From NCBI RefSeq assembly GCF_009192745.1, contig NZ_VTFV01000001.1, positions 1-64,000 on the forward strand: DNA of 64,000 nucleotides, given 5' to 3'. The notes under the pieces are model-generated. The model saw only the letters and a list, made by a program, of their open reading frames with translations, was not told where the DNA came from and ran no database searches. This DNA is from Arthrobacter citreus. Its GTDB lineage: Bacteria; Actinomycetota; Actinomycetes; Actinomycetales; Micrococcaceae. Shown here in pieces: positions 24,469 to 41,928 of this stretch (its first letter is position 1; the number at the start of each line of letters is the position of its first letter). Both the position numbers and the translations under genes were made by a program.

Positions 24469-25302
24469 TTGGCTACGGATCGTAAACACGGGAGCTCGGG
24501 CAGGGTTGCCCGGACAGCGGAACGGGCAGCGGATTCGAAGGCCTTCGAACGTGCTGCCCGCATGGGATACGTTGCCAGCGGCGTACTCCATGCCCTGATC
24601 GGCTTCATTGCCCTCCAGATTGCCGGCGGAGGCGGAGGCGACGCCGATTCCTCCGGCGCGGTGGCAGCCCTGGCGGACCAGCCGGGCGGCATCTTCCTGA
24701 TCTGGGCCTGCTTCCTCGGCTGCCTGGCCCTGTCCCTTTTCCAGGCCACGCGCGTGTTCCTGGATACGGGCGAAGACCGCAAGGAAGTCTGGAAGAAGCG
24801 GGCCACGGATGCCGGATCGGCTGTAGTCTACGGCGCCATTGGCATCAGCTTCGGGGTATTCGCCCTCGGTGGTTCCAGCGACAGTGAGCAGAGCCAGGTC
24901 ACCTGGACAGCCCGCATCCTGAGCCAGCCGGCAGGACAGGTGCTGGTTGGCCTGACGGGTGCGGTGATCGCCGGGATCGGTGTCTACTTCATCTACAAAG
25001 GCGCAACCCGCAAGTTCCGCAAGGACCTTGGTCCCATACCGGCACGGACCTGGCAGCGTACGGCAACAGCCACCGGTGTAGCCGGATTCGTGGCCAAGGG
25101 CATCTCGCTGCTGATTCTTGGCGGACTGGTAGTAGCCGCGGCCGTGACCGCGGACCCCGAGAAGTCCACCGGACTCGACGGCGCCCTGCGCACCCTGCAT
25201 GAGGCGCCTTTGGGCTGGCTGGCGCTGGGCGCCGTCGGAGTGGGACTGGTACTTTACGGGCTCTATATGGCCCTGATCCGGGCCCGGTTCGGCAAGCTCT
25301 AG
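24469..25302 (+). CDS. DUF1206 membrane protein
   Basis: 277 aa from TTG at 24469, chosen for GGAGG five bases upstream. Three repeats of a two-helix unit are visible, beginning ARMGYVASGVLHALIGFIAL (about 25-45), RATDAGSAVVYGAIGISFGV (about 108-127) and TATGVAGFVAKGISLLILGG (about 195-215), as in DUF1206. About six membrane helices. The function is not known. The 3' end overlaps the convergent metQ gene by four bases. Confidence 0.85.
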   Translation: MATDRKHGSSGRVARTAERAADSKAFERAARMGYVASGVLHALIGFIALQIAGGGGGDADSSGAVAALADQPGGIFLIWACFLGCLALSLFQATRVFLDTGEDRKEVWKKRATDAGSAVVYGAIGISFGVFALGGSSDSEQSQVTWTARILSQPAGQVLVGLTGAVIAGIGVYFIYKGATRKFRKDLGPIPARTWQRTATATGVAGFVAKGISLLILGGLVVAAAVTADPEKSTGLDGALRTLHEAPLGWLALGAVGVGLVLYGLYMALIRARFGKL

Positions 25303-26174
25303 GCCTGCCACCAGGAGTCGAGTTCCTCCAGCGGATCCGCGTCCCACGGGGTGGGCAGCACACCGCCCATGTAGCCGGCGAACCATTCCCGGACCTCCGG
25401 TGACTGGTAGGCCTCCTGCAGGACCTTCGCCTTCTCGGAGTCGGCGAATTCCGCGGTGCCGGCCACGACGCAGCGGAACGGAACCTGGTCTGCTTCAGCC
25501 TCGAAGGCCAGCGCGTCATCCGGGGACAGCCCGATTTCGGCGGCCAGCCGCACGAACAGCACACCGGCGTCCACATCCGGCAGCGTCTTGGAGAGGGACT
25601 GCTGGTCCACTTCCACGAATTCGAAGTTCTTCGGGTTGGCGGTGATGCTCTCCTGCGAGGTGTGGATGACGCCTACCCCGTCCTTGAGTTCCAGCAGGCC
25701 CGCATCGCGCAGCAGCACCAGCCCGCGGCCGTTGTTGGCGGGGTCCACCGGCAGCGCGATCCGTGCGCCGTCGGGCAGTTCCTGCAGGGACTTCCACCGC
25801 TCTGACCAGATGCCCGCCGGCGAACCGTAAACGTAGAACAGCGGCTGCACCTCAAGCTTCTGGTCCACGTTGAACTGCTGCAGGTAGGCCCCGTGCTGGA
25901 AGTAGTTGGCATCGAACTCGCCGTTGGAGACGGCGAGGTTGGGCTGGATGATGTCCGTGACGTAGGTGGCCTCCAGCGTCCAGCCCTTGGCCTTGAGCAG
26001 TTCGGCGGCAATCTTGGTGGGTTCCTGGTACGGAGCGGATTCGGTGGCAATGATCTTGATGGTCTTGTCCCCGGAGGCTGCCGCACCCCCGGTCAGGCCG
26101 CAGCCGGTAGCGGCGGTCAGCGAGGCAGCACCTGCGCCGGCGAGTGCGAGTTTGAGGAAGTTCCTGCGTTCCAT
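25299..26174 (-). CDS. metQ: MetQ/NlpA-family substrate-binding lipoprotein
   Basis: 291 aa. The N-terminus combines a twin-arginine-like motif (RRNFLKLALAGAG) with a lipobox ending ATGC near residue 25. The mature protein shows the NlpA/MetQ pattern: YVTDIIQPNLAVSNGEFDANYFQHGAYLQQF, LPDGARIALPVDPANNGRGLVLLRDAGL and DVDAGVLFVR. It is the last gene of metN-metI-monooxygenase-SfnB-like-metQ. The ligand could be methionine, its sulfoxide or another organosulfur compound; the flavoenzymes in the operon favour more than plain methionine. Confidence 0.88.
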   Translation of the reverse strand: MERRNFLKLALAGAGAASLTAATGCGLTGGAAASGDKTIKIIATESAPYQEPTKIAAELLKAKGWTLEATYVTDIIQPNLAVSNGEFDANYFQHGAYLQQFNVDQKLEVQPLFYVYGSPAGIWSERWKSLQELPDGARIALPVDPANNGRGLVLLRDAGLLELKDGVGVIHTSQESITANPKNFEFVEVDQQSLSKTLPDVDAGVLFVRLAAEIGLSPDDALAFEAEADQVPFRCVVAGTAEFADSEKAKVLQEAYQSPEVREWFAGYMGGVLPTPWDADPLEELDSWWQA

Positions 26175-26203
26175 GGTGTTTCCTTTGAAAGAGTGCGAGT
26201 GGT

Positions 26204-27418
26204 TTAGCGGTAGGCGGAGGGAACCGGTTCGGTTCCGGTGAGGAAGTACCGGCCGAGTTCGTTGTATTTCCAGGCAACGGGGTCGTGCAGGGTGTGGGTG
26301 CGGACGTCCCGCCAGTACCGGTCGAACCCGTATTTGCTGGCCGCCGCCCGCGCGCCGGTGACGTCGAAGATCCGCGCCGTGACGTCAAGCGACACCTCGT
26401 GGGCGGTGACCTTCGCGGCGGCGATCTGCTCGGCCACGCCGGCGCGGTCGGCGGCAGTCAGCGCGTCCCCGGCGTCGAAGGCCCACTGCAGTGCGGTGGT
26501 GGCCTGGTCGACGACGGCGGCCAGCGCCTGGAGCCGGGCCGCGAAGGATCCGTAGTGGTTCTGGATAAACGGATCGTCCGACGCCGATTCCACCTCGGCG
26601 TGGAACCACGGCCTTGCGCTGGAGAGCGTGTAGTCCCGGGCCGCGAGCACGGCGCCCTCCGCGGCGGCGAGGTACACGTGGGCGAAGAGCAGCTGGAAGG
26701 CGGGGGTGGTGAGCACCTGGTGCGGGCGGCGTTCGCCGTCGTGGGTTCCCAGGTTGGTGATCACCTCGGCGTCGGGCACAAACACATTCCGGAACTCGAT
26801 GGTGTTGGTGGCGGTGAGGCGGGAGCCCAGGACGTCCCAGTCATCGTGGCGCACCACGCCGTCGGAGGCGGTGTCGATGATCAGCGCCAGCCGGTCACCG
26901 CCGTCGAGCACTGCCCGGGCGTAGATCTTCTCTGCGACCCGGCTGCCGGTGGCGAACGGTTTCCTGCCGGTGACCAGGTAGCCGCCCTCGGTGCGGACGG
27001 CGGTGGCCTGGGGGCCCTGGGGAGTGCCGGTGGAGGACCAGAGCCACTGGCGGACCAGGCACTGCTCCGCCAGGTCCTGCCCGCGTTCCGGATCGAGGTC
27101 GATGTAGGGGAAGGCCTGGAAAATGTAGTGGTAGCCCAGCAGCTGTCCAATCGAGTTGTCCGCGCGGGCTACCCGCTGCACGATTTCGAAGGCGGTGCTC
27201 CAGTTGATTCCGGCGCCGCCGTAGCGGGCGGGAATGGTGAGCGGCAGCAGCCCGGACCGGCGCAGGATCTCCAGTTCCGTGAACGGCGGCTTGTTGGCGG
27301 CGTCGCGCTCGAGGGCATCCGCGCCGAGGATCGCCGCGACCTCGTCTGCGACGTCGAACCAGCGCTGCGCCTCTGCTGGCACCGTGTGTCCGTATCGGGT
27401 GAGCAGGCTGGCAGTCAT
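26204..27418 (-). CDS. DszC/SfnB-like flavin-dependent oxidoreductase (acyl-CoA dehydrogenase fold)
   Basis: 404 aa with the acyl-CoA dehydrogenase fold. Features are TELEILRRSGLLPLTIPARYGGAG near residue 47-70, DNSIGQLLGYHYIF, GYLVTGRKPFATGSR, and C-terminal DVTGARAAASKYGFDRYWRD. These match the DszC/SfnB branch, flavin-dependent oxygenases of organosulfur metabolism, rather than true acyl-CoA dehydrogenases. The start ATG overlaps the stop of the upstream DszA-like monooxygenase gene (ATGA). The pair probably oxidises and cleaves one sulfur compound and would need reduced flavin from elsewhere. Confidence 0.82.
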   Translation of the reverse strand: MTASLLTRYGHTVPAEAQRWFDVADEVAAILGADALERDAANKPPFTELEILRRSGLLPLTIPARYGGAGINWSTAFEIVQRVARADNSIGQLLGYHYIFQAFPYIDLDPERGQDLAEQCLVRQWLWSSTGTPQGPQATAVRTEGGYLVTGRKPFATGSRVAEKIYARAVLDGGDRLALIIDTASDGVVRHDDWDVLGSRLTATNTIEFRNVFVPDAEVITNLGTHDGERRPHQVLTTPAFQLLFAHVYLAAAEGAVLAARDYTLSSARPWFHAEVESASDDPFIQNHYGSFAARLQALAAVVDQATTALQWAFDAGDALTAADRAGVAEQIAAAKVTAHEVSLDVTARIFDVTGARAAASKYGFDRYWRDVRTHTLHDPVAWKYNELGRYFLTGTEPVPSAYR

Positions 27419-28839
27419 CGGGTAGCTCCTGGGGTTGCAAGGGTATTTTCGGGGGTGAAGGCGCCGCGGAACTGCGAAGCCCGGTGCCGTTCGTTCAGCA
27501 GCGGACCTGCGCCAAAGAGTTTCTCGCGCAGTGTCCCGGGGGCGTATTCGCTCTGTGCCAGGCCGCGGCGGCGCAGCTCAGGCAGCACACCGTCGATGAA
27601 GTCGGTGTAGGAGCCGGGCAGGATGGCGTTGATGATGTTGATGCCGTCCACCCCCGCGTCCTGCCAGCGTTCAAGTTCATCGGCGATCTGTTCCGGGGTG
27701 CCGGTGACCTGCTGGGCCTCGGTGCGGTAGCGGGCAACGTCGGCCAGGGTGGGATTGCCGCCCGGGGTGGAGTCGATGATCGCCTGCAGTACTCCCCGGC
27801 CCCCTTCGGTCTGTACGTCCCCCAGCGGGGTGTCCAGGTCCAGGCCGCCGAGGTCGATGCCCAGGCCGCCGCCGATGTGCGCGATCACGGCATCCAGGTC
27901 CAGGAATTCGTCCTGCTCGGCCTTTTTCCGCTGTGCTTCGGCTTCGGTGCCGCCCACCACGAAGGACAGGCCGGTGAAGACCTTGATGTCGTCGGGCCGC
28001 CGCCCGGCTTCTGCGGCGCGTGCCCGGACTCCCGCGGAGACCTTGGCCGCGTGGGCGTGGTTGGGGGCGAAGATGAACGTCGCCTCGGCGTTGGCTGCAG
28101 CGAACTGCTGCCCCCGCCCGGAACTTCCGGCCTGGAAGAGCACGGGCGTGCGCTGCGGGGAAGGTGAGCTCAGGTGCGGTCCGTCGATCGAGTACCGTTC
28201 GCCGCGGTGGTGGATCTTGTGGACTTTGTCCGGATCCGCGTGAATGCCGCTGGTTTTGTCCTGGACCAGGGCGCCGTCGTCCCAGGACCCTTCCCAGAGC
28301 TTGTACACGGCGTCGGTGTATTCGTCCGCCCAGTCGTAGCGGCGGTCGTGTTCCGTGAGGCCGTCGCCGCCGAAGTTGCGGTGCGCGTTCTCCAGCACGG
28401 AGGTGACGATGTTCCAGCCGGCACGGCCACCGGAGAGATGGTCAAGGGTGGAGAGCTGCCGCGCGAACTGGAACGGATGGCTCTGCACCACGGACGACGT
28501 CGCAGCCAGGCCGATATCCCTGGTGGCACCTGAGAGTGCGGCGAGCAGAAGCAGCGGATCGTTGGCCGGCACCTGCAGGCCGCGGCGCACGTGGGATGAC
28601 CAGCCGCCGTCGTGGTTCCCGTACAGGCCCACGACGTCGGCAAAGAACAGGGCGTCGAACTTCGCCGCTTCGAGCTGCCGGGCAAGGTCTGTCCAGAAGG
28701 ACAGCTCGTTGAAGCGGTGCTGCTCGGCATCGGGGTGGCGCCACTGGCCGCCGCGGATGTGGCTGGTGGTGTTCATCAGGAAGGCGTTCAGCAGAAGGCG
28801 CGGACGCCCGCCGGGAAAACGGGTACTGGGAATGCTCAT
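27415..28839 (-). CDS. FMN-dependent monooxygenase, NtaA/SnaA/DszA/DmoA family
   Basis: 474 aa luciferase-like TIM-barrel enzyme. Family blocks are LNAFLMNTTSHIRGGQWRHPDA, KFDALFFADVVGLYGNH, SHPFQFARQLSTLDHLSGGRAGWNIVTS, RYDWADEYTDAVYKLWEGSW, SSPSPQRTPVLFQAGSSGRGQQFAA and YAPGTLREKLFG. Members cleave C-S or C-N bonds using FMNH2 and oxygen (dibenzothiophene sulfone, dimethyl sulfide, nitrilotriacetate). Position between metI and a DszC/SfnB-like gene behind a SAM riboswitch argues for a sulfur substrate. Confidence 0.88.
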   Translation of the reverse strand: MSIPSTRFPGGRPRLLLNAFLMNTTSHIRGGQWRHPDAEQHRFNELSFWTDLARQLEAAKFDALFFADVVGLYGNHDGGWSSHVRRGLQVPANDPLLLLAALSGATRDIGLAATSSVVQSHPFQFARQLSTLDHLSGGRAGWNIVTSVLENAHRNFGGDGLTEHDRRYDWADEYTDAVYKLWEGSWDDGALVQDKTSGIHADPDKVHKIHHRGERYSIDGPHLSSPSPQRTPVLFQAGSSGRGQQFAAANAEATFIFAPNHAHAAKVSAGVRARAAEAGRRPDDIKVFTGLSFVVGGTEAEAQRKKAEQDEFLDLDAVIAHIGGGLGIDLGGLDLDTPLGDVQTEGGRGVLQAIIDSTPGGNPTLADVARYRTEAQQVTGTPEQIADELERWQDAGVDGINIINAILPGSYTDFIDGVLPELRRRGLAQSEYAPGTLREKLFGAGPLLNERHRASQFRGAFTPENTLATPGATR

Positions 28840-28868
28840 GGAAGTAACTTTCGGTAGGAGCGGGAAGG

Positions 28869-29534
28869 CTAGAGGCGCTTGTCGGCGCGGCGGGAGAGCC
28901 AGGAGCCGCCCAGCTGCACGGCCTGGACCAGCAGGACCATCAGCACAATGGCAGTGAGCATCAGCCCGGTCTCGTAGCGGTAGTAGCCGTAGCGGATGGC
29001 AAAGTCGCCGATTCCCCCGCCGCCCACCAGGCCGGCCATGGCGGAGTAGGAGATGAAGCTGACCGTCATGATGGTCACCGAGCTGATCAGGGCCGGACGG
29101 GCTTCAACCAGCAGCACGTCCCGCACAATCTGCCCGCGGGTGGCGCCCATGGAGCGGGCCGCTTCCACTACCCCGCCGCCGAGCGCGGTGATGTTCTGCT
29201 CCACGAACCGGGCAAAGTACGGGATGGCGTTGATGGTCAGCGGCACGATAACGGCTGCGGTGCCGATGGTTGTTCCCACCACGAAGCGGGTGAACGGGAT
29301 GATCGCGATCAGCAGGATCAGGAACGGAAAGGAACGCACCAGATTCACCAGTGAGTCCAGGACGCGGTGCAGCCGCGGTTTGTGCCCCAGCCCGTCCGGC
29401 CCAAGGGAGTAGAGCAGCACACCCAGCGGGGTGCCGATCAGCACCGCCAGCGGAATCGCGACCAGCAGCATGGTGCCGGTCTGGCCCAGTGCGGCGAGCA
29501 GTTCCGGCCAGACTTCGGCAATTCGCTCAAGCAA
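28869..29534 (-). CDS. metI: MetI-type ABC transporter permease
   Basis: 221 aa permease with five predicted helices. MetI-like landmarks are NLVRSFPFLILLIAIIPFTR, the conserved AARSMGATRGQIVRDVLLVEARP EAA loop and SAMAGLVGGGGIGDFAIRYGYYRY. The TTG start at 29534 is supported by GGAAGGAG six bases upstream and overlaps the metN stop by eight bases. It works with MetN and the MetQ-like lipoprotein. Confidence 0.92.
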   Translation of the reverse strand: MLERIAEVWPELLAALGQTGTMLLVAIPLAVLIGTPLGVLLYSLGPDGLGHKPRLHRVLDSLVNLVRSFPFLILLIAIIPFTRFVVGTTIGTAAVIVPLTINAIPYFARFVEQNITALGGGVVEAARSMGATRGQIVRDVLLVEARPALISSVTIMTVSFISYSAMAGLVGGGGIGDFAIRYGYYRYETGLMLTAIVLMVLLVQAVQLGGSWLSRRADKRL

Positions 29535-30318
29535 CGCGGACTCCTTCCCGGCCGGCAGCCCGGTCCAGGGTGATTTCGTCGGAGATCAGGTACCGGCCGA
29601 TTGCGGTGGCTGGCGTGAACCCGGGCCGGGCCAGCTCCGCGAGCGCGAACTGTTCCACCACCCGGCCTTCCTCCATCACGGCCACGTTGTCCGCAATCGC
29701 CTTGATGACGTTCATTTCATGGGTCACCACCACGATCGTGATGCCGAACCGTGCGTTGACGTCGCTGAGGTACTGCAGCACGGAGGCGGTGGTCCGCGGG
29801 TCGACGGCGGAGGTCGGTTCGTCGCAGAGCAGCACCTTGGGCCGCGTGGCCAGGGCACGGGCGATTGCAACTCGCTGCTTCTGTCCGCCGGAGAGCTTGG
29901 CCGGATAGGTCCCCGCCTTCTCCGAGAGGTCGACGACGGCGAGCGCCTCCAGTGCGCGGGCGCGGCGTTCGGCGGCGTTCTTCACTCCGGCGAACTTGAG
30001 CGAGAGCTCCACGTTCTGCGCCGCGGTCCGGTTGTTCAGGAGGTTGAAGTGCTGGAAGATCATGCCGATCTCATGCCTGGCCGCCCGAAGCTCGGCATCA
30101 CCCAAGCCGGTCAGGTCCGTTCCATCCACCAGTACACGGCCGGACGTTGGGCGTTCCAGCAGGTTGATGTTGCGCAGCAGGGTGGATTTACCGGCACCGG
30201 AGAACCCGATGATGCCCTGGATGCTTCCCTTGGGGATGGACAGGGTGACGTTGTCCACTGCCGTGAAGGCCGATTCACCGCCCCCAAAGACGGTAGAGAC
30301 GTTTTCGATCCGGATCAT
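29527..30318 (-). CDS. metN: MetN-type methionine/organosulfur ABC transporter ATPase
   Basis: 263 aa. Walker A is GFSGAGKST, the Q-loop is in MIFQHFNLLNNRT, the signature is LSGGQKQR, Walker B is VLLCDEPTSAVDPRTT and the H-loop is VTHEMNVIK. The start ATG at 30318 has GCAGGAGGA upstream; a longer frame exists but lacks a site. It lacks most of the C-terminal ACT-like C2 domain of E. coli MetN (about 343 aa), so ligand-dependent transinhibition through that domain is not expected. It is the first gene after an S-box-type riboswitch. Confidence 0.92.
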   Translation of the reverse strand: MIRIENVSTVFGGGESAFTAVDNVTLSIPKGSIQGIIGFSGAGKSTLLRNINLLERPTSGRVLVDGTDLTGLGDAELRAARHEIGMIFQHFNLLNNRTAAQNVELSLKFAGVKNAAERRARALEALAVVDLSEKAGTYPAKLSGGQKQRVAIARALATRPKVLLCDEPTSAVDPRTTASVLQYLSDVNARFGITIVVVTHEMNVIKAIADNVAVMEEGRVVEQFALAELARPGFTPATAIGRYLISDEITLDRAAGREGVRVA

Positions 30319-30417
30319 GCTGTCCTCCTGCGGTCTGAGCCCGGGAAGAGGTGCACGCCTCCGCAGGCTCACGCAGCCGTGCGGAAGGCACGGGGCAGCG
30401 GACCGCAAAGAGCAGGT

Positions 30418-30530
30418 GCTTCTCCATCGGTCCTGGCGGTAGCACCCTTCTTCAGCGGAAAGCCCGCGGAAGGGGGTTGCTGCGGCGTCACGGAGCCAGG
30501 TCTCTCAGCCGCTCTGGATGGTTACGGGAC
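30418..30530 (-). promoter_or_regulatory. SAM riboswitch, S-box (SAM-I) type, upstream of the metN operon
   Basis: Read on the minus strand, the leader contains GAGCGGCTGAGAGACCTGG, then TGACGCCGCAGCAACC, then a P3-like hairpin (CTTCCGCGG/CCGCTGAAG), then GGGTGCTACCGCCAGGACC. These match the S-box core (GAGGGA-type turn, UGAAnCC, GGCAACC, GGUGCUAA). The P2 arms GCGGC (30508-30512) and GCCGC (30482-30486) pair. The leader is about 100 bases before the metN start. I cannot fully resolve P1 or the expression platform, and a SAM-I/IV variant is possible. Regulation should switch the operon off when SAM is abundant. Confidence 0.85.
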
Positions 30531-30735
30531 TATCTAAACCGCCCAGGCACCGGCGGGGCCAGAAGATTTCCCCGTGCGGCCGAATGCGTCGGTGCGTAAC
30601 GCGCCGCGGCGTCACAATCCGTTTTGTTACGTCCGTGGGGGTCCCTGCCCCAACCCACGCGCCACCCGCGCAGACGCACGGGCGTTCTGCGGCGCGGGAG
30701 CACTGATTCTCCTGGGAATCCGCGAGGATGGGAAC

Positions 30736-31309: not shown

Positions 31310-31726
31310 CTAGAGTCCAAACCTTCCGGCCTCGATGACCGGGCAGGTGTTCATGACGACGTCGAGCCCTGCGTTTGCGGCGCGCTTCGCGGCGTCTTCA
31401 TCGACCACGCCCAGCTGCAGCCACACGGCCTTGGCGCCGATTGAAATGGCCTGGTCCACGATGTTTCCCACCTTGGCCGAATTCACGAAGCAATCCACAA
31501 CGTCCACCTGGCCGGGGATGTCCGCCAGCTTGCTGTAGCCCTGCTGGCCGTGGACGGCCTGCCCGGAAAGGTTCACGGGGATGATCTCCATGCCCAGGGA
31601 ATCCCGGACAAACCGTGAAACACCGACGGCGGGACGGGCCGGATTGTTCGAAAGGCCCACTACCGCCCAGCGGCCCTTGGCCGTGAGCAGCCGGGTAATG
31701 ACCTCGGGATCATTGAGGTGCACCAT
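31310..31726 (-). CDS. CoA-binding domain protein (YccU-like)
   Basis: 138 aa single Rossmann domain of the CoA_binding_2 type: KGRWAVVGLSNNPARPAVGVSRFV (nucleotide-binding loop), GMEIIPVNLSGQAVHGQQGY, and VDVVDCFVNSAKVGNIVDQAI followed by KAVWLQLGVVDEDAAKRA. The family binds CoA but its role is unproven. AAAGGAGAG precedes the ATG. A second member of the family follows metY about 10 kb away. Confidence 0.85.
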   Translation of the reverse strand: MVHLNDPEVITRLLTAKGRWAVVGLSNNPARPAVGVSRFVRDSLGMEIIPVNLSGQAVHGQQGYSKLADIPGQVDVVDCFVNSAKVGNIVDQAISIGAKAVWLQLGVVDEDAAKRAANAGLDVVMNTCPVIEAGRFGL

Positions 31727-31797: not shown

Positions 31798-32571
31798 CTA
31801 TTCCAGGAAAGCGTCGACGGCGGCGGCCAGGGTCTGGTCATCCAGCCCGTGCCAGCTGCCCTCCAGCAGCTGGAATGACCCCTCGGGCAGCAGCTCGGCA
31901 GTCTCACGCGCCCATTCGCGCAGCCGGTCATCACTTCCGGAACTCGCCAGCACCAGCACCGGCACGCGGATTCCGGTCAGGGACCGCACGTCGGTTTCCA
32001 GCAGCAGGGTCAGGTCATAGGAGATGGTGTGAGCCGCCGGCTCAAACGGAGCCGGGTCCGAGGCCTCGATGATCTCCGCCGGCACTCCGATGGACTCCTG
32101 GAACAGCCGAACGGCTCCTGCCCGGTCACCTGCCGCAACCAGCTCATCCAGCTCAGGGCGGATGTCCGGATCTTCGTCAGTGTCCCCGGTGAGCGGAGGT
32201 TCCACGGCGATGACGCTGGAGATGACCGCGGACTCCGAGGCAGCCCGGAGCGCGAGGACGGCGCCGGAGGAGGTTCCCAGCAGATCGGCCGTGCCGCCGG
32301 CGGTTTCCACCACGGCCAGCAGGTCGTCCACCTCGGATTCCGGGGTGTACTCCTCCCCGTCCCCGCTCTCGCCCTTGCCTCGGCGGTCATACGTGTAGAC
32401 GGTGTGGCCTGCGGCCAGCAGTTCGGCAACACCTGCCATCCCCGAGGTGGTCCGGTCCATCATGACGGGATCCACCACCACCAGCGGAGGCCCTTCCCCC
32501 CGGCGCTGCCACGCAATAGGCGTTCCGTCGGCGGAAAGCACACGTCCTGAAGCTTCGGCTGATGGATCCAT
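31798..32571 (-). CDS. alpha/beta-hydrolase
   Basis: 257 aa from ATG at 32571 (GGAGAACCCC upstream). The fold is shown by GPPLVVVDPVMMDR, TVYTYDRRGKGESGDG, the nucleophile elbow GTSSGA near residue 103, and a late VLVLASSGSDDRLREWA followed by the catalytic His in GSWHGL. The substrate is unknown. It stands alone on the minus strand between a CoA-binding gene and the second DszA-like monooxygenase. Confidence 0.85.
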   Translation of the reverse strand: MDPSAEASGRVLSADGTPIAWQRRGEGPPLVVVDPVMMDRTTSGMAGVAELLAAGHTVYTYDRRGKGESGDGEEYTPESEVDDLLAVVETAGGTADLLGTSSGAVLALRAASESAVISSVIAVEPPLTGDTDEDPDIRPELDELVAAGDRAGAVRLFQESIGVPAEIIEASDPAPFEPAAHTISYDLTLLLETDVRSLTGIRVPVLVLASSGSDDRLREWARETAELLPEGSFQLLEGSWHGLDDQTLAAAVDAFLE

Positions 32572-32893
32572 GGGGTTCTCCTTACCTGGAGGCTGGGGGT
32601 CCCTCAACGGTAGGAGCGCCAGGGGAGGCGGTCAATGGCCCGCCACGGCTCACAGCTCGGCCGCCCCCCGCCGTCAGGACCTCCGTGACGTCCGCCGTCC
32701 CCTGCCCGTAGTCGAAGATGGCGGTGGCAGCGTGCGGCTTGCACACGGCCCTTTCCGCACTGGAGGCAGGTGGGATACCGGCACCTGCACCGTCATCTCG
32801 CCTCGGGCACGCGCCCGCTTGGAGGTGACGTTCAGGCTGACCAGACGGGCGTCCCCTTGTTCATCGTGATGACGAGGGAAATACGTCAAGCTC
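32572..32893. other. intergenic region without a supported gene
   Basis: About 320 bases between the monooxygenase stop and the hydrolase start, both on the minus strand. Short frames in all directions have no ribosome-binding site or family resemblance. A minus-strand stretch around 32700-32800 reads as a Cys-rich fragment in one frame but has no start. It could be gene remnant, promoter or terminator sequence. Confidence 0.4.
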
Positions 32894-34288: not shown

Positions 34289-34358
34289 GAGGGTCCTTTG
34301 CATGCGGGACGCCGCGCAGGGGCGCCGTACTTGCCGCCGGCGGTCTTGCCGGTCGACC

Positions 34359-34438
34359 GGATCGTCATCTGGGGCACCCCGCTACGGGAGAGGGTTGCCG
34401 CCCAACCAGCCAGAGCTTCGCGTTGGGACTCATGATCC
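34359..34438 (-). promoter_or_regulatory. SAM-IV-type riboswitch upstream of the second monooxygenase
   Basis: On the minus strand the element begins GGATCATGAGTCCCAACG, continues through GCGAAGCTCTGGCTGGTTGG and GGCGGCAACCCTC, has CGTAGCGGGGTGCCCC, and closes with ATGACGATCC. This follows the actinobacterial SAM-IV consensus from end to end, with the closing stem GGATC/GATCC and the GGCAACC and GGGGTGCCCC boxes. It ends about 70 bases before the ATG. It is expected to repress when SAM is high. Confidence 0.85.
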
Positions 34439-34553: not shown

Positions 34554-34613
34554 ATCGAGATGACAGAAACTGCCCGTTTCAGCGCTGTAACGTGCAGTTT
34601 CTGCTATCTCGAT
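34554..34613. repeat. dispersed palindromic repeat, copy D (imperfect)
   Basis: Outer arms ATCGAGAT/ATCTCGAT and inner AACTGCCCGTT/AACGTGCAGTT form a long hairpin with a few mismatches. It lies between the divergent SAM-IV and S-box leaders, so it separates two sulfur transcription units. Confidence 0.85.
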
Positions 34614-34681
34614 GGAAAGGGAGCGGGATTCGAAATGTTACGCCGGGACTTGCCGGAAACGGACTCTTGGGCGTTTAGTTG

Positions 34682-34850
34682 GGTCTTGACCATCCCGAGC
34701 GGCTGAGAGACCTGGATCAGTGAAGCCGCAGCAACCCTGGTCGGAGTGCTTCCTCCTTGAGGCACTGCGATAGCGAGGTGGACGTCGCAGGAGGCCGCTA
34801 ACCCGGCCCAGGACGTTTTCCGTAGGGTGCTACTGCCAGGACCGATGGAG
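34682..34850 (+). promoter_or_regulatory. SAM riboswitch, S-box (SAM-I) type with enlarged P3, upstream of ssuBAC
   Basis: The core CGAGCGGCTGAGAGACCTGG, TGAAGCCGCAGCAACC is nearly identical to the metN leader, with P2 arms at 34699-34703 and 34725-34729. The matching 3' box GGGTGCTACTGCCAGGACC starts at 34825. Between them the metN copy has about 27 bases, but this copy has about 90, with extra helices (AGTGC/GCACT; CTGCGA/TCGCAG). The ssuB ATG follows only 15 bases after GATGGAG, so control may act at translation initiation. Confidence 0.83.
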
Positions 34851-34857
34851 TGTTCAC

Positions 34858-35685
34858 ATGACTGCAGTACTTTCCTCCGGCTCCCATGCCGTCTCCGCTG
34901 CCCCGCGCACCGCGCCTGACACTGCCCTGTCCGTGACGTTCGACGGCGTTGGCCGCAGCTTCGGCTCCGGTGCAGATGCCCACGTGGTGCTTCGGGACAT
35001 CAACTTCGAAGTGCGCCCCGGGGAAGTCCTGGCGATCCTCGGGTCCAGCGGCTGCGGCAAGTCCACCCTGCTGCGCGCCACCGCAGGGCTCGACGCCGCT
35101 TCCACCGGTCAGGTGCTGATCGACGGGACCGCAGTGCGCGGCATCGACGACCGCTGCGCCGTCGCCTTCCAGGAACCCCGGCTGCTGCCCTGGCAGACCC
35201 TGCAGGCCAACGTTGCCATCGGCTTGCCCAAGGGTGTCAGCGCCAGCGAAGGCAAGGCCAAGGTTTCCGAGCTGCTCAAGCTGGTGGAGCTGGACAGCTT
35301 CGCCAAGCACCAGCCCCGCGCAGTGTCCGGCGGCATGGCCCAGCGTGCTTCGCTGGCCCGTGCGCTGGCCCGCAAACCCGGCGTCCTGCTGCTGGATGAG
35401 CCTTTCGGCGCCCTCGATGCCCTGACCCGTTTGAAGATGCAGGACCTGCTGCTGGACGTGCACCGCGCGGCTCCGGCAACCGTCCTGCTTGTCACGCACG
35501 ACGTCGATGAAGCCCTGCAGCTCGCCGACCGGATCATCGTGCTGGGCCGCGAACCGGGCAAACCCGGCGCCACCATCACCCAAACCATCACCGTGCCCGG
35601 CGCCCGGCCGCGGGACCGTGCCTCGGCCGAGCTTGCCCGAATGCGCGGCGAGCTCCTGGCGAGCCTCGGCGTCGACCGCCACTAA
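34858..35685 (+). CDS. ssuB: aliphatic sulfonate ABC transporter ATPase
   Basis: 275 aa of the SsuB/TauB/NrtD family. Walker A is GSSGCGKST, the Q-loop is in VAFQEPRLLPWQTL, the signature is SGGMAQR, Walker B is VLLLDEPFGALDALTR and the H-loop is VTHDVDEA. The N-terminal 25 residues are a Ser/Ala-rich extension. It is the first gene after the S-box-type riboswitch. Sulfonate specificity is inferred from family and from the sulfur context. Confidence 0.88.
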   Translation: MTAVLSSGSHAVSAAPRTAPDTALSVTFDGVGRSFGSGADAHVVLRDINFEVRPGEVLAILGSSGCGKSTLLRATAGLDAASTGQVLIDGTAVRGIDDRCAVAFQEPRLLPWQTLQANVAIGLPKGVSASEGKAKVSELLKLVELDSFAKHQPRAVSGGMAQRASLARALARKPGVLLLDEPFGALDALTRLKMQDLLLDVHRAAPATVLLVTHDVDEALQLADRIIVLGREPGKPGATITQTITVPGARPRDRASAELARMRGELLASLGVDRH

Positions 35686-35797
35686 GGCCCGTTTTCCCCT
35701 GCCCCCGGTGTCCTGCGGGGCGAATCCGCAGTCCCTCTGTGCCTGCACCCGTGCTTTCCCTGAATTTTTCCGCACCACCCGTCTCGAAGGAATCCCC

Positions 35798-36865
35798 ATG
35801 AACAGCCGTTCCAGCTTCTCCCGCCGCCCGCCCCGCTTCTCCCGCCGCCCGCTCACCGCACTGGCAGCCACCGCCGCCGCCCTCACGCTGGCCCTGACCG
35901 GCTGCGTGGCCGGAGAGGATTCCTCCGGTGCGGCCGCCAATGACGCAGCCGACGGCGGCACCCTGAACATCGACTTCGCCACGTACAACCCGCTCAGCCT
36001 GGTCATCAAGGACCAGGGCTGGCTCGAAGCAACCCTTGAAGAGCAGGGTGTGGAGGTCAACTGGGTGCAGTCCGCCGGGTCGAACAAAGCCAATGAGGCG
36101 CTGCGTGCCGGTGCGATCGACGTCGGCTCCACCGCCGGTTCGGCAGCCCTGCTGGCCCGCTCCAACGGTTCGCCGATCAAGACCATCAGCATCTACTCGC
36201 AGCCGGAATGGGCGGGACTGCTGGTCTCCCCCGATTCGGATATCACCTCGGTAGCTGATCTGGCCGGCAAGTCCGTAGCCGCCACCAAGGGCACCGATCC
36301 GTACTTCTTCCTGGTTCAGGCACTGGAAGAGGCCGGCCTGAGCACCTCAGACGTCACGGTCGAGAACCTGCAGCACGCCGACGGCCGCACCGCCCTCGAG
36401 AACGGTTCGGTGGACGCCTGGTCCGGACTGGATCCGATCATGGCCGGAGCCGAGCACGCCGGCGCCGAGTTCCTCTACCGGAACCTGGACTTCAACACCT
36501 ACGGTTTCCTGAACGCCACTGAGTCCTTCCTCGAGGAAAAGCCGGAACTGGCCCAGACCGTGGTGGACGCCTACGAAAAGGCCCGCGCCTGGGCCGCGGA
36601 GAACCCCGAGGAAACTGCGCAGATCCTCGCCGACGTCGCAGGCCTGGACCTTGAGGTGGCCCGCACCGTGATCCTGGAACGCAGCAACCTCGACGTCGAC
36701 GCCGCCCCGGGCGACGCGCAGCGCAAGGTCCTGGAAAAGGTTGGTCCAGTCTTCGTCGAAACCGGCGACGTCGCCAACCAGAAGGCGATCGACGACGCCG
36801 TGGCCTCCCTGCTCGATGACACCTTCGTGCAGAAGGCCAACGCGGAAACCATCAAGGACTCCTAA
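35798..36865 (+). CDS. ssuA: aliphatic sulfonate ABC transporter substrate-binding lipoprotein
   Basis: 355 aa. An Arg-rich N-terminus (SRRPPRFSRRPL), hydrophobic core and lipobox LTGC place the lipidated Cys near residue 36. The body shows the SsuA/TauA/NrtA pattern: FATYNPLSLVIKDQGWLE, VNWVQSAGSNKANEALRAGAIDVGSTAGSAALLARSNG, DLAGKSVAATKGTDPYFFL and DAWSGLDPIMAGAE. CGAAGGA precedes the ATG. About 110 bases separate it from ssuB. Confidence 0.88.
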   Translation: MNSRSSFSRRPPRFSRRPLTALAATAAALTLALTGCVAGEDSSGAAANDAADGGTLNIDFATYNPLSLVIKDQGWLEATLEEQGVEVNWVQSAGSNKANEALRAGAIDVGSTAGSAALLARSNGSPIKTISIYSQPEWAGLLVSPDSDITSVADLAGKSVAATKGTDPYFFLVQALEEAGLSTSDVTVENLQHADGRTALENGSVDAWSGLDPIMAGAEHAGAEFLYRNLDFNTYGFLNATESFLEEKPELAQTVVDAYEKARAWAAENPEETAQILADVAGLDLEVARTVILERSNLDVDAAPGDAQRKVLEKVGPVFVETGDVANQKAIDDAVASLLDDTFVQKANAETIKDS

Positions 36866-37722
36866 TGAGCACCAATCCTTCTCCTGCCGCTGCACCCGCA
36901 GCGGCAGGCCCGTTCGGACCTTCCGCAGCGCCGGCACCTGTCCGGAAGACCAGCTCCGGCGGCTTCCTGTCCCGGACCTGGGCGCGCGTGGCCCTGGGCC
37001 TGGTGGTTCCCGTCCTGCTGCTGGGCCTCTGGCAGCTGGTCTCCGTGCTCGGCGTCTTCAGCGCCGTGCAGCTGCCCTCTCCGGGCGCGGTGCTGACCTC
37101 GGCTGCGGACCTGATTGAGCGCGGCGAGCTGGGCACGCACATTGCCATCTCCACTCAGCGGGTGCTGACCGGCTTCGCGCTCGGCGCGGCCCTGGGCCTG
37201 GTCCTGGGCGCCCTGCTGGGCCTGTCCAAGCTGGCGGACGTACTGCTGGGCCCGCTGTTCGGTGCGGTACGCGCCGTTCCCTCCCTGGCCCTGGTTCCGC
37301 TGCTGATCCTCTGGATGGGTATCGGTGAGGATTCAAAGGTCACGCTGATCACCATCGGCGCGTTTTTCCCGGTCTTCACCACCGTGTCCCTCGCCCTGCG
37401 CCATGTGGACAAGAACCTCGTCGAAGCGGCCCGTGCCTTCGGCCTGAACGGGATCAGGCTGCTCACCACGGTGCAGCTGCCTGCCGTCGTACCCGCCGTG
37501 TTCTCCGGCCTGCGGCTCGCCCTGGCACAGTCTTGGCTGTTCCTGGTGGCTGCGGAACTGATCGCGTCCTCCATGGGGCTGGGCTTCCTGCTCACGGACT
37601 CCCAGAACAACGGCCGCACCGACCGGATGTTCCTGGCGATCGTGCTGCTGGCAGTTATCGGCAAAACAACGGATGCCCTGCTGGGTGTCGCAGAGAAGTG
37701 GGCAGTGAAGAAGTGGGCGTAA
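36865..37722 (+). CDS. ssuC: aliphatic sulfonate ABC transporter permease
   Basis: 285 aa with six predicted helices and the family EAA loop (EAARAFGLNGIRLLTTVQLPA). RAVPSLALVPLLILWMGIGEDSKVTLITIGAFFPVF and AAELIASSMGLGFLLTDSQN are typical of SsuC/TauC. The ATG shares one base with the ssuA stop. Its own 3' end overlaps the start of the acyl-CoA synthetase gene by ten bases, so the four genes are one operon. Confidence 0.9.
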   Translation: MSTNPSPAAAPAAAGPFGPSAAPAPVRKTSSGGFLSRTWARVALGLVVPVLLLGLWQLVSVLGVFSAVQLPSPGAVLTSAADLIERGELGTHIAISTQRVLTGFALGAALGLVLGALLGLSKLADVLLGPLFGAVRAVPSLALVPLLILWMGIGEDSKVTLITIGAFFPVFTTVSLALRHVDKNLVEAARAFGLNGIRLLTTVQLPAVVPAVFSGLRLALAQSWLFLVAAELIASSMGLGFLLTDSQNNGRTDRMFLAIVLLAVIGKTTDALLGVAEKWAVKKWA

Positions 37723-39692
37723 GCACAGCACTCCAACCAGCAGCCGAACCGGAGTTCGCCACCGAGGCTGAGCGCATCGCGTTCTGGGAGGACGCCGCCC
37801 GGCGCCTGCAGTGGGAACAGCCGTGGCACGCCGCCCACACCTTCCGCCCTCCGCAGCGGCTCAGCGGCCCGGAGGTTCCGGAAGCCGACGCCGAATACTC
37901 CGTCCCGGAAATCGAGTGGTTCGCCGGCGGAAAGCTCAACGTCGCCGTGAACTGCGTGGACCGCCATGTGGCGGCCGGCCGCGGGGACAAAGTGGCGCTG
38001 CACGCCGAGGGCGAGCCCGGCGACCGGCGCAGCATCACCTACGCGCAGCTGCAGAAGGAAGTCTCCAAGGCAGCCAACGCCCTGCTGGCACTGGGCATCG
38101 AAAAAGGCGACCGGGTGGTCATCTACCTGCCCGTCATCGCCGAAACCATCATCATCACCCTGGCCTGCGCCCGGATCGGCGCCATCCACTCACTGGTCTT
38201 CGGCGGCTTCTCCGCCGAGGCCCTGAAGTTCCGGGTGGAAAACACCCGCGCCAAGCTGCTGGTCACCACCGACGGCCAGTTCCGCCGCGGCGCAGCCGTT
38301 CCGGTCAAGGACAACGCGGACGAGGCGGTTTCCGGGGACAACGCGATCGAACATGTGCTGGTCATCCGGCGCACCGGCTGCGACATTGCTTGGACCGAAG
38401 GCCGGGACATCTGGTGGCATGACACCGTGGACACCGCCTCCGACATCCACGAACCCGAGGCCTTCGACGCCGAGACGCCGCTGTTCATCATGTACACCTC
38501 CGGCACCACCGGAAAGCCCAAGGGCCTGGTGCACACCATGGGCGGTTACCTCACCCAGGCGTCCTGGAGCTACGAGTTCCTCTTCGCCAACCCGGACGAA
38601 TCCGCCCGGGATGCGGACGTCCACTGGTGCACCGCGGACCTGGCGTGGGTCACCGCGCACACCTATGAGATGTACGGGCCGCTCTCCAACGGCGTCACCC
38701 AGGTGATCTTTGAAGGCACCCCGAACACCCCGCATCCGGGCCGGCACTTCGAAATCATCGAACGCTACAAGGTGACCAGCTACTACACAGCCCCCACCCT
38801 GGTCCGGTCCCTGATGGGCTGGTTCCCCGACGGCGTCCCGGACACCTGGGACCTGTCCTCCATCCGGCTGCTGGGCACCGTGGGCGAAGCCGTGAACCCG
38901 GAAGTCTGGCGCTGGATGCGGGAGAACATCGGCCGAGGCGAAGTTCCCGTAATCGACACCTGGTGGCAGTCCGAAACCGGCGCCACCATCCTCTCCCCGC
39001 GCCAGACGGACACCGTCTTCAAGCCCGGCTGCGCCTCCCGCGCCCTGCCCGGCGTTTCCACCCGGATCGTCGACGAGCACGGCGCCGATGTGCCCCCGAA
39101 CGTCCAGGGCTTTATTGTGGTGGATAAGACCGGGCCGTCCATGGCGCGCACCTGCTGGGGCGACCCGCAGCGCTACCTCTCCTCCTACTGGCGGCAGTAC
39201 GCGCAGCAGGGCTGGTTCCTGGCCGGGGACGGAGCCCGCTATGACGACGACGGCGACACCTGGATCCTGGGGCGGGTGGACGACGTCCTGAATGTCTCCG
39301 GACACCGGCTCTCCACAATCGAGATCGAGTCCGCGCTGGTCTCCCATCCTTGGGTGGTCGAAGCCGGGGTCTGCCCGGTGGCCGATCCGAAGACCGGGCA
39401 CGCCATCGCCGCGTTCGTGGTCCTCACCGAGACCGCGTCGCAGGACGCAGAAACCGTTACCGCGCAGCTGCGGGCCCATGTGGCGAAGGAGATCGGACCG
39501 ATTGCCAAGCCCGCCGCCGTCGTCGCGGTTCCGGACGTGCCCAAGACCCGCTCCGGCAAGATCATGCGGCGCCTGCTCACCCAGCTGTTCGAGGGCACCA
39601 CGCTCGGGGACACCACCAGCCTGCAGAACGAACCCTGCATTCCCGCGATCCATGCCGTGTGCGAAGCGCGCCGGACCGGGGCCGGGAACTAA
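37713..39692 (+). CDS. acetyl-CoA synthetase-like acyl-CoA ligase
   Basis: 659 aa, full Acs length. It activates acetate (or a similarly small acid) to the CoA thioester through an acyl-AMP. The AMP-binding P-loop is YTSGTTGKPKG, the acetate-pocket motif is DTWWQSETGA (the second Trp limits acyl size in Acs), the hinge motif is GRVDDVLNVSGHRLST, and the C-terminal catalytic lysine, a known acetylation target, lies in TRSGKIMRR. The GTG start at 37713 overlaps ssuC. Presence in a riboswitch-controlled sulfonate operon is unusual and suggests it handles a carboxylate linked to the transported compound. Confidence 0.88.
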   Translation: MGVSTALQPAAEPEFATEAERIAFWEDAARRLQWEQPWHAAHTFRPPQRLSGPEVPEADAEYSVPEIEWFAGGKLNVAVNCVDRHVAAGRGDKVALHAEGEPGDRRSITYAQLQKEVSKAANALLALGIEKGDRVVIYLPVIAETIIITLACARIGAIHSLVFGGFSAEALKFRVENTRAKLLVTTDGQFRRGAAVPVKDNADEAVSGDNAIEHVLVIRRTGCDIAWTEGRDIWWHDTVDTASDIHEPEAFDAETPLFIMYTSGTTGKPKGLVHTMGGYLTQASWSYEFLFANPDESARDADVHWCTADLAWVTAHTYEMYGPLSNGVTQVIFEGTPNTPHPGRHFEIIERYKVTSYYTAPTLVRSLMGWFPDGVPDTWDLSSIRLLGTVGEAVNPEVWRWMRENIGRGEVPVIDTWWQSETGATILSPRQTDTVFKPGCASRALPGVSTRIVDEHGADVPPNVQGFIVVDKTGPSMARTCWGDPQRYLSSYWRQYAQQGWFLAGDGARYDDDGDTWILGRVDDVLNVSGHRLSTIEIESALVSHPWVVEAGVCPVADPKTGHAIAAFVVLTETASQDAETVTAQLRAHVAKEIGPIAKPAAVVAVPDVPKTRSGKIMRRLLTQLFEGTTLGDTTSLQNEPCIPAIHAVCEARRTGAGN

Positions 39693-39961: not shown

Positions 39962-40082
39962 GCCCGCTCCCAGGATTGCCCCGCTGCAACTGTCCTCAAC
40001 ATTGTTGGTATCCAGCACCCAATAAAGCAACCATTGGCGAACCGCCTACCCGCGGTTCCCCCAAGGAAGGAGCACTCAGTCC

Positions 40083-41444
40083 ATGAGTGACCGCCAGTTC
40101 GGATTCCGTACCCGCGCTCTGCACGCCGGTGGAACACCCGACGCCATCCACGGCGCACGTGCCGTTCCCATCTACCAGTCGACGTCGTTCGTCTTCAAGG
40201 ACACCGCCGACGCCGCCAACCTCTTCTCGCTGCAGAAGTACGGCAACATCTACTCCCGGATCGGCAACCCCACGGTCGCCGCGTTCGAGGAGCGCATCGC
40301 CTCCCTTGAGGGTGGAATCGGTGCGGTGGCGACGGCGTCGGGCATGTCAGCGGAATTCGTCACCTTCGCGGCGATCTGCTCCGCCGGGGACCACATCGTC
40401 GCCGCTTCCCAGCTCTACGGCGGCACGGTCACGCAGCTGGACGTGACGCTGCGCCGCTTCGGCATCGAAACCACCTTCGTTCCCGGCACCGACCCGGCGG
40501 ACTACGCCGCGGCCATCCAGGAAAACACCAAGGCCGTGTACGCGGAAGTGGTAGCCAACCCCAGCGGCGAGGTCACCGACATTGAGGGCCTGGCCAAGGT
40601 GGCGCACGACGCCGGTGTGCCGCTGATCCTCGATGCCACCCTGAGCACGCCCTACCTGGTGCAGCCGTTCAAGCACGGCGCGGACATTGTGATCCACTCC
40701 GCCACCAAGTTCATCGGCGGGCACGGCACCACCCTGGGCGGCGTCGTCGTGGAAGCCGGCACCTTCAACTGGGGCAACGGCAAGTTCCCGGCCATGACCG
40801 AGCCGGTGCCGTCCTACGGCAACATCTCCTGGTGGGGGAACTTCGGCGAGTACGGCTTCCTGACCAAGCTGCGCTCCGAACAGCTGCGCGACATTGGGCC
40901 CACGCTCTCCGCGCAGTCCGCGTTCCAGCTGCTGCAGGGGGTTGAAACCCTGGCCCAGCGCGTGGACGAGCACCTGCGCAACGCCCAGGCCGTGGCCGAA
41001 TGGCTTCAGGCCGATGAGCGGGTGGCCTGGGTGTCCTACGCCGGCCTTGAATCCCACCCGCACCACGAACGGGCCCAAAAGTACCTGCCCAAGGGCCCGG
41101 GTTCCGTCTTCAGCTTCGGCGTCAAGGGCGGCCGTTCTGCCGGACAGACGTTCATCGAATCCCTGCAGCTTGCCTCGCACCTGGCCAACGTGGGCGACTC
41201 CCGCACCCTGGTGATCCATCCGGCGTCGACCACCCACCAGCAGCTCTCCCCCGAGCAGCTTGCAGCCGGCGGCGTGCCGGAGGACCTTGTGCGCATCTCC
41301 GTTGGCCTGGAGGACCTGGAGGATATTCTCTGGGACCTTGACCAGGCGCTTACCGCAGCCGCCGCGGATACGGCGCCCGCCGCCGTCGAACCCGCCGCGT
41401 CCTGCAGCCTTCCGCTTGAAACCGAGGAGTCAGCCAATGTCTGA
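40083..41444 (+). CDS. metY: O-acetylhomoserine sulfhydrylase (bifunctional OAH/OAS type)
   Basis: 453 aa PLP enzyme of the Cys/Met metabolism family. It makes homocysteine from O-acetylhomoserine and sulfide. It begins FRTRALHAGGTPDAIHGARAVPIYQSTSFVFKD; PLP-contacting YSRIGNPTVAAFE and ASGMSAEF follow, and the Schiff-base lysine is in HSATKFIGGHG. HPASTTHQQLSPE and VRISVGLEDLEDI complete the family pattern. The 430-aa class with a long NWGNGKFPAMTEP insert is MetY rather than MetB. AAGGAAGGAG precedes the ATG. It is the assimilation step for sulfur released by the monooxygenases. Confidence 0.95.
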   Translation: MSDRQFGFRTRALHAGGTPDAIHGARAVPIYQSTSFVFKDTADAANLFSLQKYGNIYSRIGNPTVAAFEERIASLEGGIGAVATASGMSAEFVTFAAICSAGDHIVAASQLYGGTVTQLDVTLRRFGIETTFVPGTDPADYAAAIQENTKAVYAEVVANPSGEVTDIEGLAKVAHDAGVPLILDATLSTPYLVQPFKHGADIVIHSATKFIGGHGTTLGGVVVEAGTFNWGNGKFPAMTEPVPSYGNISWWGNFGEYGFLTKLRSEQLRDIGPTLSAQSAFQLLQGVETLAQRVDEHLRNAQAVAEWLQADERVAWVSYAGLESHPHHERAQKYLPKGPGSVFSFGVKGGRSAGQTFIESLQLASHLANVGDSRTLVIHPASTTHQQLSPEQLAAGGVPEDLVRISVGLEDLEDILWDLDQALTAAAADTAPAAVEPAASCSLPLETEESANV

Positions 41445-41928
41445 GAACCGCACCTGGGTGGGGCCCAGCGCCCCGGAACGCCTGTCGCTGCTGCGTTCGG
41501 CCACATCGATCGCCATTGTGGGTGCCTCGGACAAACCGTCCCGTGCCTCCTACTTTGTGGCCACGTACCTGCTCTCCTCCTCGCCGTACAAGGTGTACTT
41601 CGTGAACCCGGTGGCCAAGGAAATCCTGGGCCAGCCGGTGTACGCCTCGCTGGCGGACCTGCCGGAGACCCCGGACATCGTGGACGTGTTCCGCCGGCAC
41701 GACGACCTGCCTACAGTCCTGGAGGAAGCCAAGGCCGTGGGCGCCAAGACGCTGTGGCTGCAGCTGGGGTCCTGGCATGAAGAGGTTGCCCGAGACGCGG
41801 AAGCCGCCGGAATGAACGTGGTGATGGACCGCTGCGTGAAGATCGAGCACGCCCGGTTCCACGGTGGCCTGAACCTCGCGGGCTTCAACACCGGGGTGAT
41901 CTCCTCCAAGCGGCAGCTCACCGCCTAG
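41437..41928 (+). CDS. CoA-binding domain protein next to metY
   Basis: 163 aa, CoA_binding_2 Rossmann domain: ATSIAIVGASDKPSRASYFVATYLL, YKVYFVNPVAKEILGQPVYASLADLPETPDIVDVFRRHDDLP, and KTLWLQLGSWHEEVARDAEAAGMNVVMDRCVKIEHARF. The ATG lies inside the end of metY (eight-base overlap), so the two are translationally coupled. Linkage of this family to metY suggests a role in methionine synthesis or its control, but none is proven. Confidence 0.88.
   Translation: MSENRTWVGPSAPERLSLLRSATSIAIVGASDKPSRASYFVATYLLSSSPYKVYFVNPVAKEILGQPVYASLADLPETPDIVDVFRRHDDLPTVLEEAKAVGAKTLWLQLGSWHEEVARDAEAAGMNVVMDRCVKIEHARFHGGLNLAGFNTGVISSKRQLTA

Follow-up and report, generated by a model that had tools for sequence, protein, structure and literature searches.

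The first 64,000 nucleotides of contig NZ_VTFV01000001.1 from Arthrobacter citreus (assembly GCF_009192745.1; positions 1-64,000, forward strand), hereafter the window, contain at 25299-41928 a locus of predicted organosulfur genes with three leaders that match S-adenosylmethionine (SAM) riboswitch aptamers. On the minus strand a SAM-I (S-box) aptamer (30421-30524) lies upstream of a metNI-like operon and a SAM-IV aptamer (34322-34437) upstream of a DmoA-like monooxygenase gene, and on the plus strand a SAM-I aptamer with an enlarged P3 (34687-34851) precedes ssuB. The locus is ordinary in its logic; its two unusual features are a three-way-junction domain within P3 of the ssuB leader and an exchange of aptamer class at the DmoA-like gene among relatives.

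The leaders were searched for with the Rfam covariance models (4227 families over the 64 kb), with gathering scores of 44.4 bits for SAM-I (RF00162) and 38 bits for SAM-IV (RF00634). The SAM-IV aptamer (34437-34322, minus strand) was aligned over the whole model (1-116 of 116) and passed its gathering score with 92.2 bits (E 2.3e-15 for this search space); the match extends the leader earlier placed at 34359-34438 through P5 to 34322. A lineage model, R3, gave 122.7 bits, this leader being part of its training set. SAM-IV aptamers are marked by a P2-loop pseudoknot and a pseudoknot between the P3 loop and the 3' tail. Both are formed with 5 bp each in the window, and among the aligned SAM-IV leaders the P2-loop pseudoknot has 5 bp in 20/20 and the P3-loop pseudoknot at least 5 bp (G-U allowed) in 19/20. 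A second, weak R3 match inside metY (40726-40834, minus strand; 18.2 bits, E 0.027) is taken as chance. The metN leader, previously read as an S-box at 30418-30530, matches RF00162 at 30524-30421 (minus strand) with 54.5 bits, above gathering (E 8.5e-10), and scores 97.2 bits with a lineage SAM-I model, R2, which was built from 30 shorter leaders with the metN leader included and the ssuB leader excluded. The ssuB leader, previously placed at 34682-34850, is covered end to end by RF00162 (model 1-108; 34687-34851, plus strand) with 39.0 bits, under gathering (E 2.6e-6 in a 6.1-kb scan), a low score that fits the long insertion in P3; R2, independent of this leader, gives 82.7 bits (E 1.5e-20). 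All three leaders proposed by the sequence-only reading are thus matched by covariance models, although one of the SAM-I leaders stays under its Rfam gathering score.

The proposal of two structurally distinct sensors is overstated. SAM-I and SAM-IV share one Rfam clan (CL00012), and R2, a SAM-I model, weakly matches the SAM-IV leader of the window (15.2 bits, E 0.077); by these sequence models the two are related classes, not independent sensors. The divergent SAM-IV and ssuB SAM-I aptamers are separated by a gap of 249 nt. A long hairpin between the two leaders, resembling microRNA families, was weighed as a possible regulatory element but set aside, since it is a dispersed palindromic repeat (REP, repetitive extragenic palindrome, or MITE-like, as in miniature inverted-repeat transposable elements), with copies in the window at 34555-34614, 21871-21934 and 17264-17321, 75 matches across the genome on the two strands taken together, and exact arm copies in 2 of the 7 relatives searched.

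The genes were named by hidden Markov model (HMM) searches using the curated cut-offs of TIGRFAM, NCBI and Pfam, together with the nearest solved structure by sequence. Downstream of the metN leader, all on the minus strand, lies a short-form MetN-like ATP-binding cassette (ABC) ATPase (29527-30318, start 30318 read from sequence), which matches positions 1-230 of 343 of TIGR02314 with 300.9 bits, under the 499.7 cut-off, and has Pfam ABC_tran and generic P-loop matches; a Pfam search found no C-terminal NIL domain. It is followed by a MetI-like permease (28869-29534; NF008049, 192.5 bits, under the cut-off of 212), by LLM1, a flavin mononucleotide (FMN)-dependent monooxygenase of the NtaA/DmoA family (27415-28839; TIGR03860, 514.4 bits, cut-off 279.7) whose nearest solved structure is the hexachlorobenzene oxidative dehalogenase 6lr1 (503.4 bits), by a DszC/MsuC/SfnB-like monooxygenase of the acyl-CoA dehydrogenase fold (26204-27418), and by a MetQ/NlpA-like substrate-binding lipoprotein (25299-26174; NlpA domain PF03180, 189.2 bits; TIGR00363, 123.9 bits, under the cut-off of 228.85). 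The DszC/MsuC/SfnB-like protein scores higher with NF043015 (DszC, 286.7 bits) than with TIGR04022 (SfnB, 256.7 bits, cut-off 430.9), reaches neither cut-off, and has 8cda, 6u76 methanesulfinate monooxygenase and DszC as its nearest solved relatives. Behind the SAM-IV leader, also on the minus strand, the DmoA-like monooxygenase LLM2 (32894-34288), scored on the longer frame from 34303, passes the NtaA/DmoA subfamily cut-off (TIGR03860, 569 vs 279.7 bits); its nearest solved structure by sequence is 6ak1, a dimethyl-sulfide monooxygenase (578 bits, 451 residues aligned). The plus strand carries a SsuB-like ABC ATPase (34858-35685; best match NF008420, 201 bits, under the cut-off of 395), a SsuA-family substrate-binding protein (35798-36865; TIGR01728, 222.2 bits for the longer frame from 35489, passing 163.5), a SsuC-like permease (36865-37722; best match NF008470, 180.5 bits, under 347), the acetyl-CoA synthetase AcsA, encoded by acs (37725-39692; TIGR02188, 775 bits for the longer frame from 37533, passing 724.95; Pfam ACAS_N and AMP-binding domains), and MetY, an O-acetylhomoserine sulfhydrylase (40083-41444; TIGR01326, 597.9 bits, passing 495.1). 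The gene content that had been read from the sequence (metNI, a monooxygenase and metQ; ssuBAC with an acyl-CoA synthetase; a second monooxygenase; metY) is borne out by the HMMs, except that the supposed SfnB is closer to DszC and the supposed MetN is without NIL.

Within P3 of the ssuB leader lies a three-way-junction domain of about 80 nt (P3 with the domain, model R1: 34729-34835, plus strand), which was recognized by covariation, by folding (z -2.5) and by a family-wide search. The consensus three-way junction was derived from 19 sequences, in which both sides change in 12 of 33 pairs, as many as in none of 500 shuffles; further pair types were matched by 51/500 shuffles, and the other four of five measures by none. 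R1 found 45 matches in 40/245 genomes of the family, in 5 of the 32 genera sampled, and across the order the domain occurred in 7/297 genomes, all from the same family. Among 47 distinct sequences, fitted to R1 and therefore leaning towards its structure (the short matches L139, L140 and L156 included), compensatory changes occur in 20 of 34 pairs. Pairing is possible in 96.3% of cells, against 33-51% once one side has been shifted along the other. After the three short matches had been dropped and identical rows counted once, 44 sequences remained for the identity and pseudoknot counts. The two junction segments have mean identities of 0.93 (5 of 9 columns invariant) and 0.98 (3 of 4 invariant), and helices A, B and C of 0.64-0.67. 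Loop A can pair with the strand after helix B as CCU:AGG, CCC:GGG or GCC:GGC, the pairing being absent (only 2 bp) in 2/44; its mean length of 3.93 bp exceeds the permuted mean of 3.54 (0/2000 as high, in a test that ignores kinship), which is suggestive of a loop A-junction pseudoknot. Copies of the domain are mostly tied to ssuB: among 28 full-length copies in mapped loci 24 precede ssuB, and the remaining four, in genus g8 (L144-L147), sit in a second SAM-I leader before a different gene, in loci that also hold metN-like, sfnB-like and LLM1 homologues further along.

We consider it probable that this domain is purely architectural, a stiffener or folding nucleus of the SAM-I aptamer. All 6 sequences folded singly were more stable than at least 196/200 shuffles (z -2.5 to -4.7), with helices A and B/C in 6/6 and the junction G-G/C-C pairs in 5 by eye. 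The domain was found only inside SAM-I, and in L139, L140 and L156 the P3 is short but keeps the same ends. On the other hand, the ssuB leaders of G029, G030 and G031 are without it, so that the P3 domain is dispensable, and an architectural role alone may not account for such conservation of the junction.

The second feature is the leader of the DmoA-like gene, whose class differs between relatives, being SAM-IV in some and SAM-I in others. The genus sample consists of 20 stretches of 20 kb, picked for carrying the ssuB-type SAM-I leader, which make 21 genus loci together with the window; 8 further genus genomes of the set were left out. Seventeen of these loci have a DmoA-like gene, behind a SAM-IV leader in 16 and a SAM-I leader in one (G010), where it lies opposite an ssuB leader of the same kind with the gene order kept. 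In other genera (G029, G031 and Sinomonas) SAM-I also precedes the DmoA-like gene. In a set of 80 loci, SAM-IV is directly upstream of the gene in 8 (L159-L166), SAM-I in 5 (L170, L173, L178, L179 and L201) and neither in 67, eight of which (L183, L184, L203, L210, L214, L215, L226 and L232) have a same-strand SAM-I about 1.5 kb upstream. A gene tree of 100 rows (the window, 21 further loci and 78 of the 80; L159 and L160 duplicate the genomes of L067 and L080, and L088 that of L173, and these three were left out) implies at least three class changes among the 32 rows with a class, and the starred branches force two; the tree was made with a 'quick' method, is unrooted, carries support from the Shimodaira-Hasegawa-like approximate likelihood ratio test (SH-aLRT) only, and leaves the 68/100 rows with neither class directly upstream uncounted. 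The aptamer class at the DmoA-like gene is thus exchangeable between relatives, and we propose that SAM-I and SAM-IV act as interchangeable modules.

The same distribution could in principle arise with no leader being changed in place, if different paralogues of the DmoA-like gene had landed behind SAM-I or SAM-IV leaders that were already in place. G030 and G033 (54-56% identity) carry SAM-IV leaders that by eye resemble that of the window, which suggests an old SAM-IV/monooxygenase cassette, and several forks of the tree are open, that of G010 included; G010, however, has retained both the order of the genes and the divergent leader of ssuB and differs only in the leader on the monooxygenase side, and we regard insertion of paralogues as a possible but rather doubtful account. 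That selection has set the two classes apart by SAM threshold, so that the DmoA-like gene and the ssu operon are induced one after the other, appears less likely still. It would suit the divergent SAM-IV/SAM-I pairs, less than 1.2 kb apart, which are found in 15/21 genus loci and also outside the genus, in G030 and G033 of two further genera (the SAM-I of G033 stands before acs), but the divergent pair of G010 is SAM-I/SAM-I and G029, G031 and Sinomonas have SAM-I before the DmoA-like gene, so that two classes are not needed.

A last idea returns to the P3 domain. No free-standing copy was established by a looser pattern search of the 245 genomes, which gave 27 matches in 22 genomes, 22 of them known SAM-I domains; this is a weak test because the pattern, the junction together with the opening letters of the 3' P3 strand, is still tied to P3 and failed to recover 23 of the 45 R1 matches. 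The other five (G151:C221, G149, G235, G104 and G243) look like chance by eye. That the domain is a second aptamer nested in SAM-I for another sulfur-related signal, so that the ssu operon integrates two inputs before translation, is quite improbable: its junction is far better conserved than its helices, 20/34 pairs show compensation, a loop-junction pseudoknot is possible, and the domain reaches 5/32 genera and a SAM-I leader away from ssuB (g8), but every domain found sits within a SAM-I P3, the looser pattern yielded known domains and chance-like matches, and tertiary stabilisation explains the conserved junction equally well, with no ligand indicated. Were it true, one compact RNA would read SAM and a second sulfur-status signal before translation of the sulfonate operon.

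All three leaders are most likely OFF switches acting on translation. In the window the 3' strand of P1 (GAUGG), the Shine-Dalgarno sequence GGAG that it overlaps and the ssuB start codon lie within 34844-34860 (plus strand). In all 22 ssuB leaders with an enlarged P3 among 86 SAM-I matches, the GAUGG of P1 and the Shine-Dalgarno sequence overlap, with the start codon 8-10 nt beyond GAUGG. Of the 86 as a whole, a few of them from one genome twice, 85 have the P1 strand, and in 60 a start codon lies 5-21 nt downstream of it and opens a frame of 80 codons or more; some of these 60 starts are TTG or distant and may be chance, that of the window's metN leader (TTG) among them. A ribosome-binding site within the 3' strand of P1 is a described SAM-I platform (PMC2258182). 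Between the metN aptamer and its likely start there are about 100 nt. The tails of 8 metN leaders fold differently, the window and the near-identical L075 sharing one fold, and we therefore claim no single platform for this leader type. A competing helix in the SAM-IV leader was an idea by eye only and is not claimed either.

Our analysis favors, with a probability of about 0.8, a largely conserved Arthrobacter organosulfur-scavenging locus whose genes three SAM-sensing leaders would keep silent until SAM drops. The identity of the aptamers, the gene families, their conservation, the covariation and the class difference between relatives are directly established. In the proposed scheme, falling SAM would release the three leaders and turn on the scavenging genes. 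SsuBAC would then import sulfonate-like compounds and the NIL-less MetNIQ a sulfur compound; the flavin-dependent monooxygenases (DmoA-like, NtaA/DmoA-type and DszC/MsuC/SfnB-like) would cleave C-S bonds, possibly with reduced FMN (FMNH2) from a flavin reductase encoded behind another SAM-IV leader; and the released sulfur would enter homocysteine via MetY. At ssuB, SAM would stabilise P1, whose 3' strand covers the Shine-Dalgarno sequence shortly before the start codon, and because of this overlap we propose that SAM binding itself blocks translation, with the P3 three-way junction most likely stiffening or tuning the aptamer. SAM binding, the OFF logic, the substrates and the role of the P3 domain are here predictions. 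Several observations weigh against the scheme. The ssuB leader misses the Rfam gathering score (39.0 vs 44.4 bits), Rfam found no riboswitch between acs and metY, leaving metY without one of its own here, and several proteins fall under the curated cut-offs for the named enzyme, so that their substrates are guesses. The metNI-LLM1-sfnB part was found in only 5 of the 20 genus stretches (L066, L075, L079, L080 and L081), although the 20-kb stretches may cut it off. Finally, pairing of the segment after P1 with the ribosome-binding site in metN-type leaders failed as a candidate platform, since only 1 of 20 scorable leaders reached p < 0.05 against shuffles (25 leaders were given, and no start was found in 5).

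Conservation within the genus supports the core of the locus. With tblastn, ssuB, ssuA and ssuC were found in all 20 genus stretches, metY in 19, acs in 18 and the DmoA-like gene in 16. Synteny within the genus extends over the ssu-metY part, whose G+C content equals that of the window, and most of the locus is a conserved Arthrobacter locus and not an acquired one, so that the term 'island' is not supported; the metNI part is rarer. What stands from the sequence-only reading is that two Rfam classes of SAM aptamers front one organosulfur programme, with a conserved ssu/DmoA arrangement. Relatives add further genes: acs has its own SAM-I in G033 (58.4 bits) and, under the cut-off, in G030 (43.8 bits) and G032 (37.7 bits), metY has one in G032, G033 and G035, and in L156 a fragment of an SfnG-like gene (TIGR04021, 187 bits on 107 residues, whole-protein cut-off 383) lies behind a SAM-I-like leader. 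These leaders support acs, metY and sulfone oxidation as one programme.

Sulfonate and sulfone systems of sulfate starvation (ssu, sfn, msu) are controlled by transcription factors. The locus shares with them the SsuBAC importer, FMNH2-dependent monooxygenases and a DszC/MsuC/SfnB-like enzyme, and differs in its predicted control by SAM aptamers. The SAM-IV leader of the window has the whole RF00634 model and both pseudoknots; what sets it apart is its place before a DmoA-like monooxygenase gene, divergent from a SAM-I leader. The ssuB leader shares with RF00162 the whole aptamer end to end and the platform with the ribosome-binding site in P1 (PMC2258182), and differs by its covarying three-way junction with strongly conserved junction letters in P3; that paper describes the variable insertions of riboswitches as lacking conservation and as stem-loops in the typical case. 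Tandem SAM-II/SAM-V and SAM-II/SAM-I-IV riboswitches (PMC9481103) likewise combine two SAM aptamer classes for one function; there both are in one mRNA, whereas those of the window are in two divergent mRNAs. In the actinobacteria covered by PMC1262725, methionine operons were reported to lack a conserved upstream RNA structure. The divergent SAM-IV/SAM-I pair, the P3 domain and the class change were not found described in the literature searched, a weak negative as most subscription papers lay outside the search, nor in the passages of PMC3766115, PMC2864571, PMC9481103, PMC12452182, PMC1262725 and PMC2258182. The earlier remark that no description of this exact combination is known thus fits the arrangement, but the mere presence of both classes is common (41/59 genomes searched by our tally, own genome included). 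In this locus two related SAM aptamer classes that precede genes of a single programme can be compared in their natural setting; since related genes have different classes in different bacteria, it can also be tested whether riboswitch classes are interchangeable. The P3 domain is a conserved structural addition to a well-studied riboswitch, and the gene set points to SAM as the signal for organosulfur scavenging in these Micrococcaceae, if the leaders work as predicted.

The genome search listed two SAM-I aptamers, both in this locus, and six SAM-IV aptamers. Three of the other five SAM-IV leaders stand before metY-metX, a flavin reductase gene (PF01613) and a NIL-containing metNI, and the remaining two are divergent variants before other genes; metY, metX and metI were here named by eye from sequence. 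One divergent variant in this genome (L106:7886-8012, minus strand; 63.9 bits) precedes a short open reading frame that overlaps a PIN-domain-like gene (PF01850, 21.1 bits, under cut-off), in a layout that by eye resembles a toxin-antitoxin pair, and then an Nramp transporter; PIN-like and Nramp homologues follow variants of this type in 5 relatives (L244-L247 and L250). Similar variants stand before a MetE-like gene in L248 (4018-4143, minus strand; PF01717, 44.2 bits) and L249 (3876-3999, minus strand; gene named by eye). Another variant in this genome (L107:8255-8387, minus strand; 49.6 bits) precedes a small protein without a Pfam match, and a cyclic di-AMP riboswitch (L105:664-829, plus strand; 60 bits) lies about 7 kb from the SAM-IV leader of metNI. 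Within the locus, an alpha/beta hydrolase gene (31798-32607, minus strand; PF12697, 59.8 bits) and two CoA_binding_2 genes complete the gene set, one of the latter adjoining metY (41437-41928, plus strand; PF13380, 144.3 bits) and the second at 31310-31726 (minus strand; PF13380, 120.4 bits), each present in 18/20 genus stretches. Elsewhere in the window, Rfam matches a bacterial small signal recognition particle RNA at 856-951 (69.3 bits).

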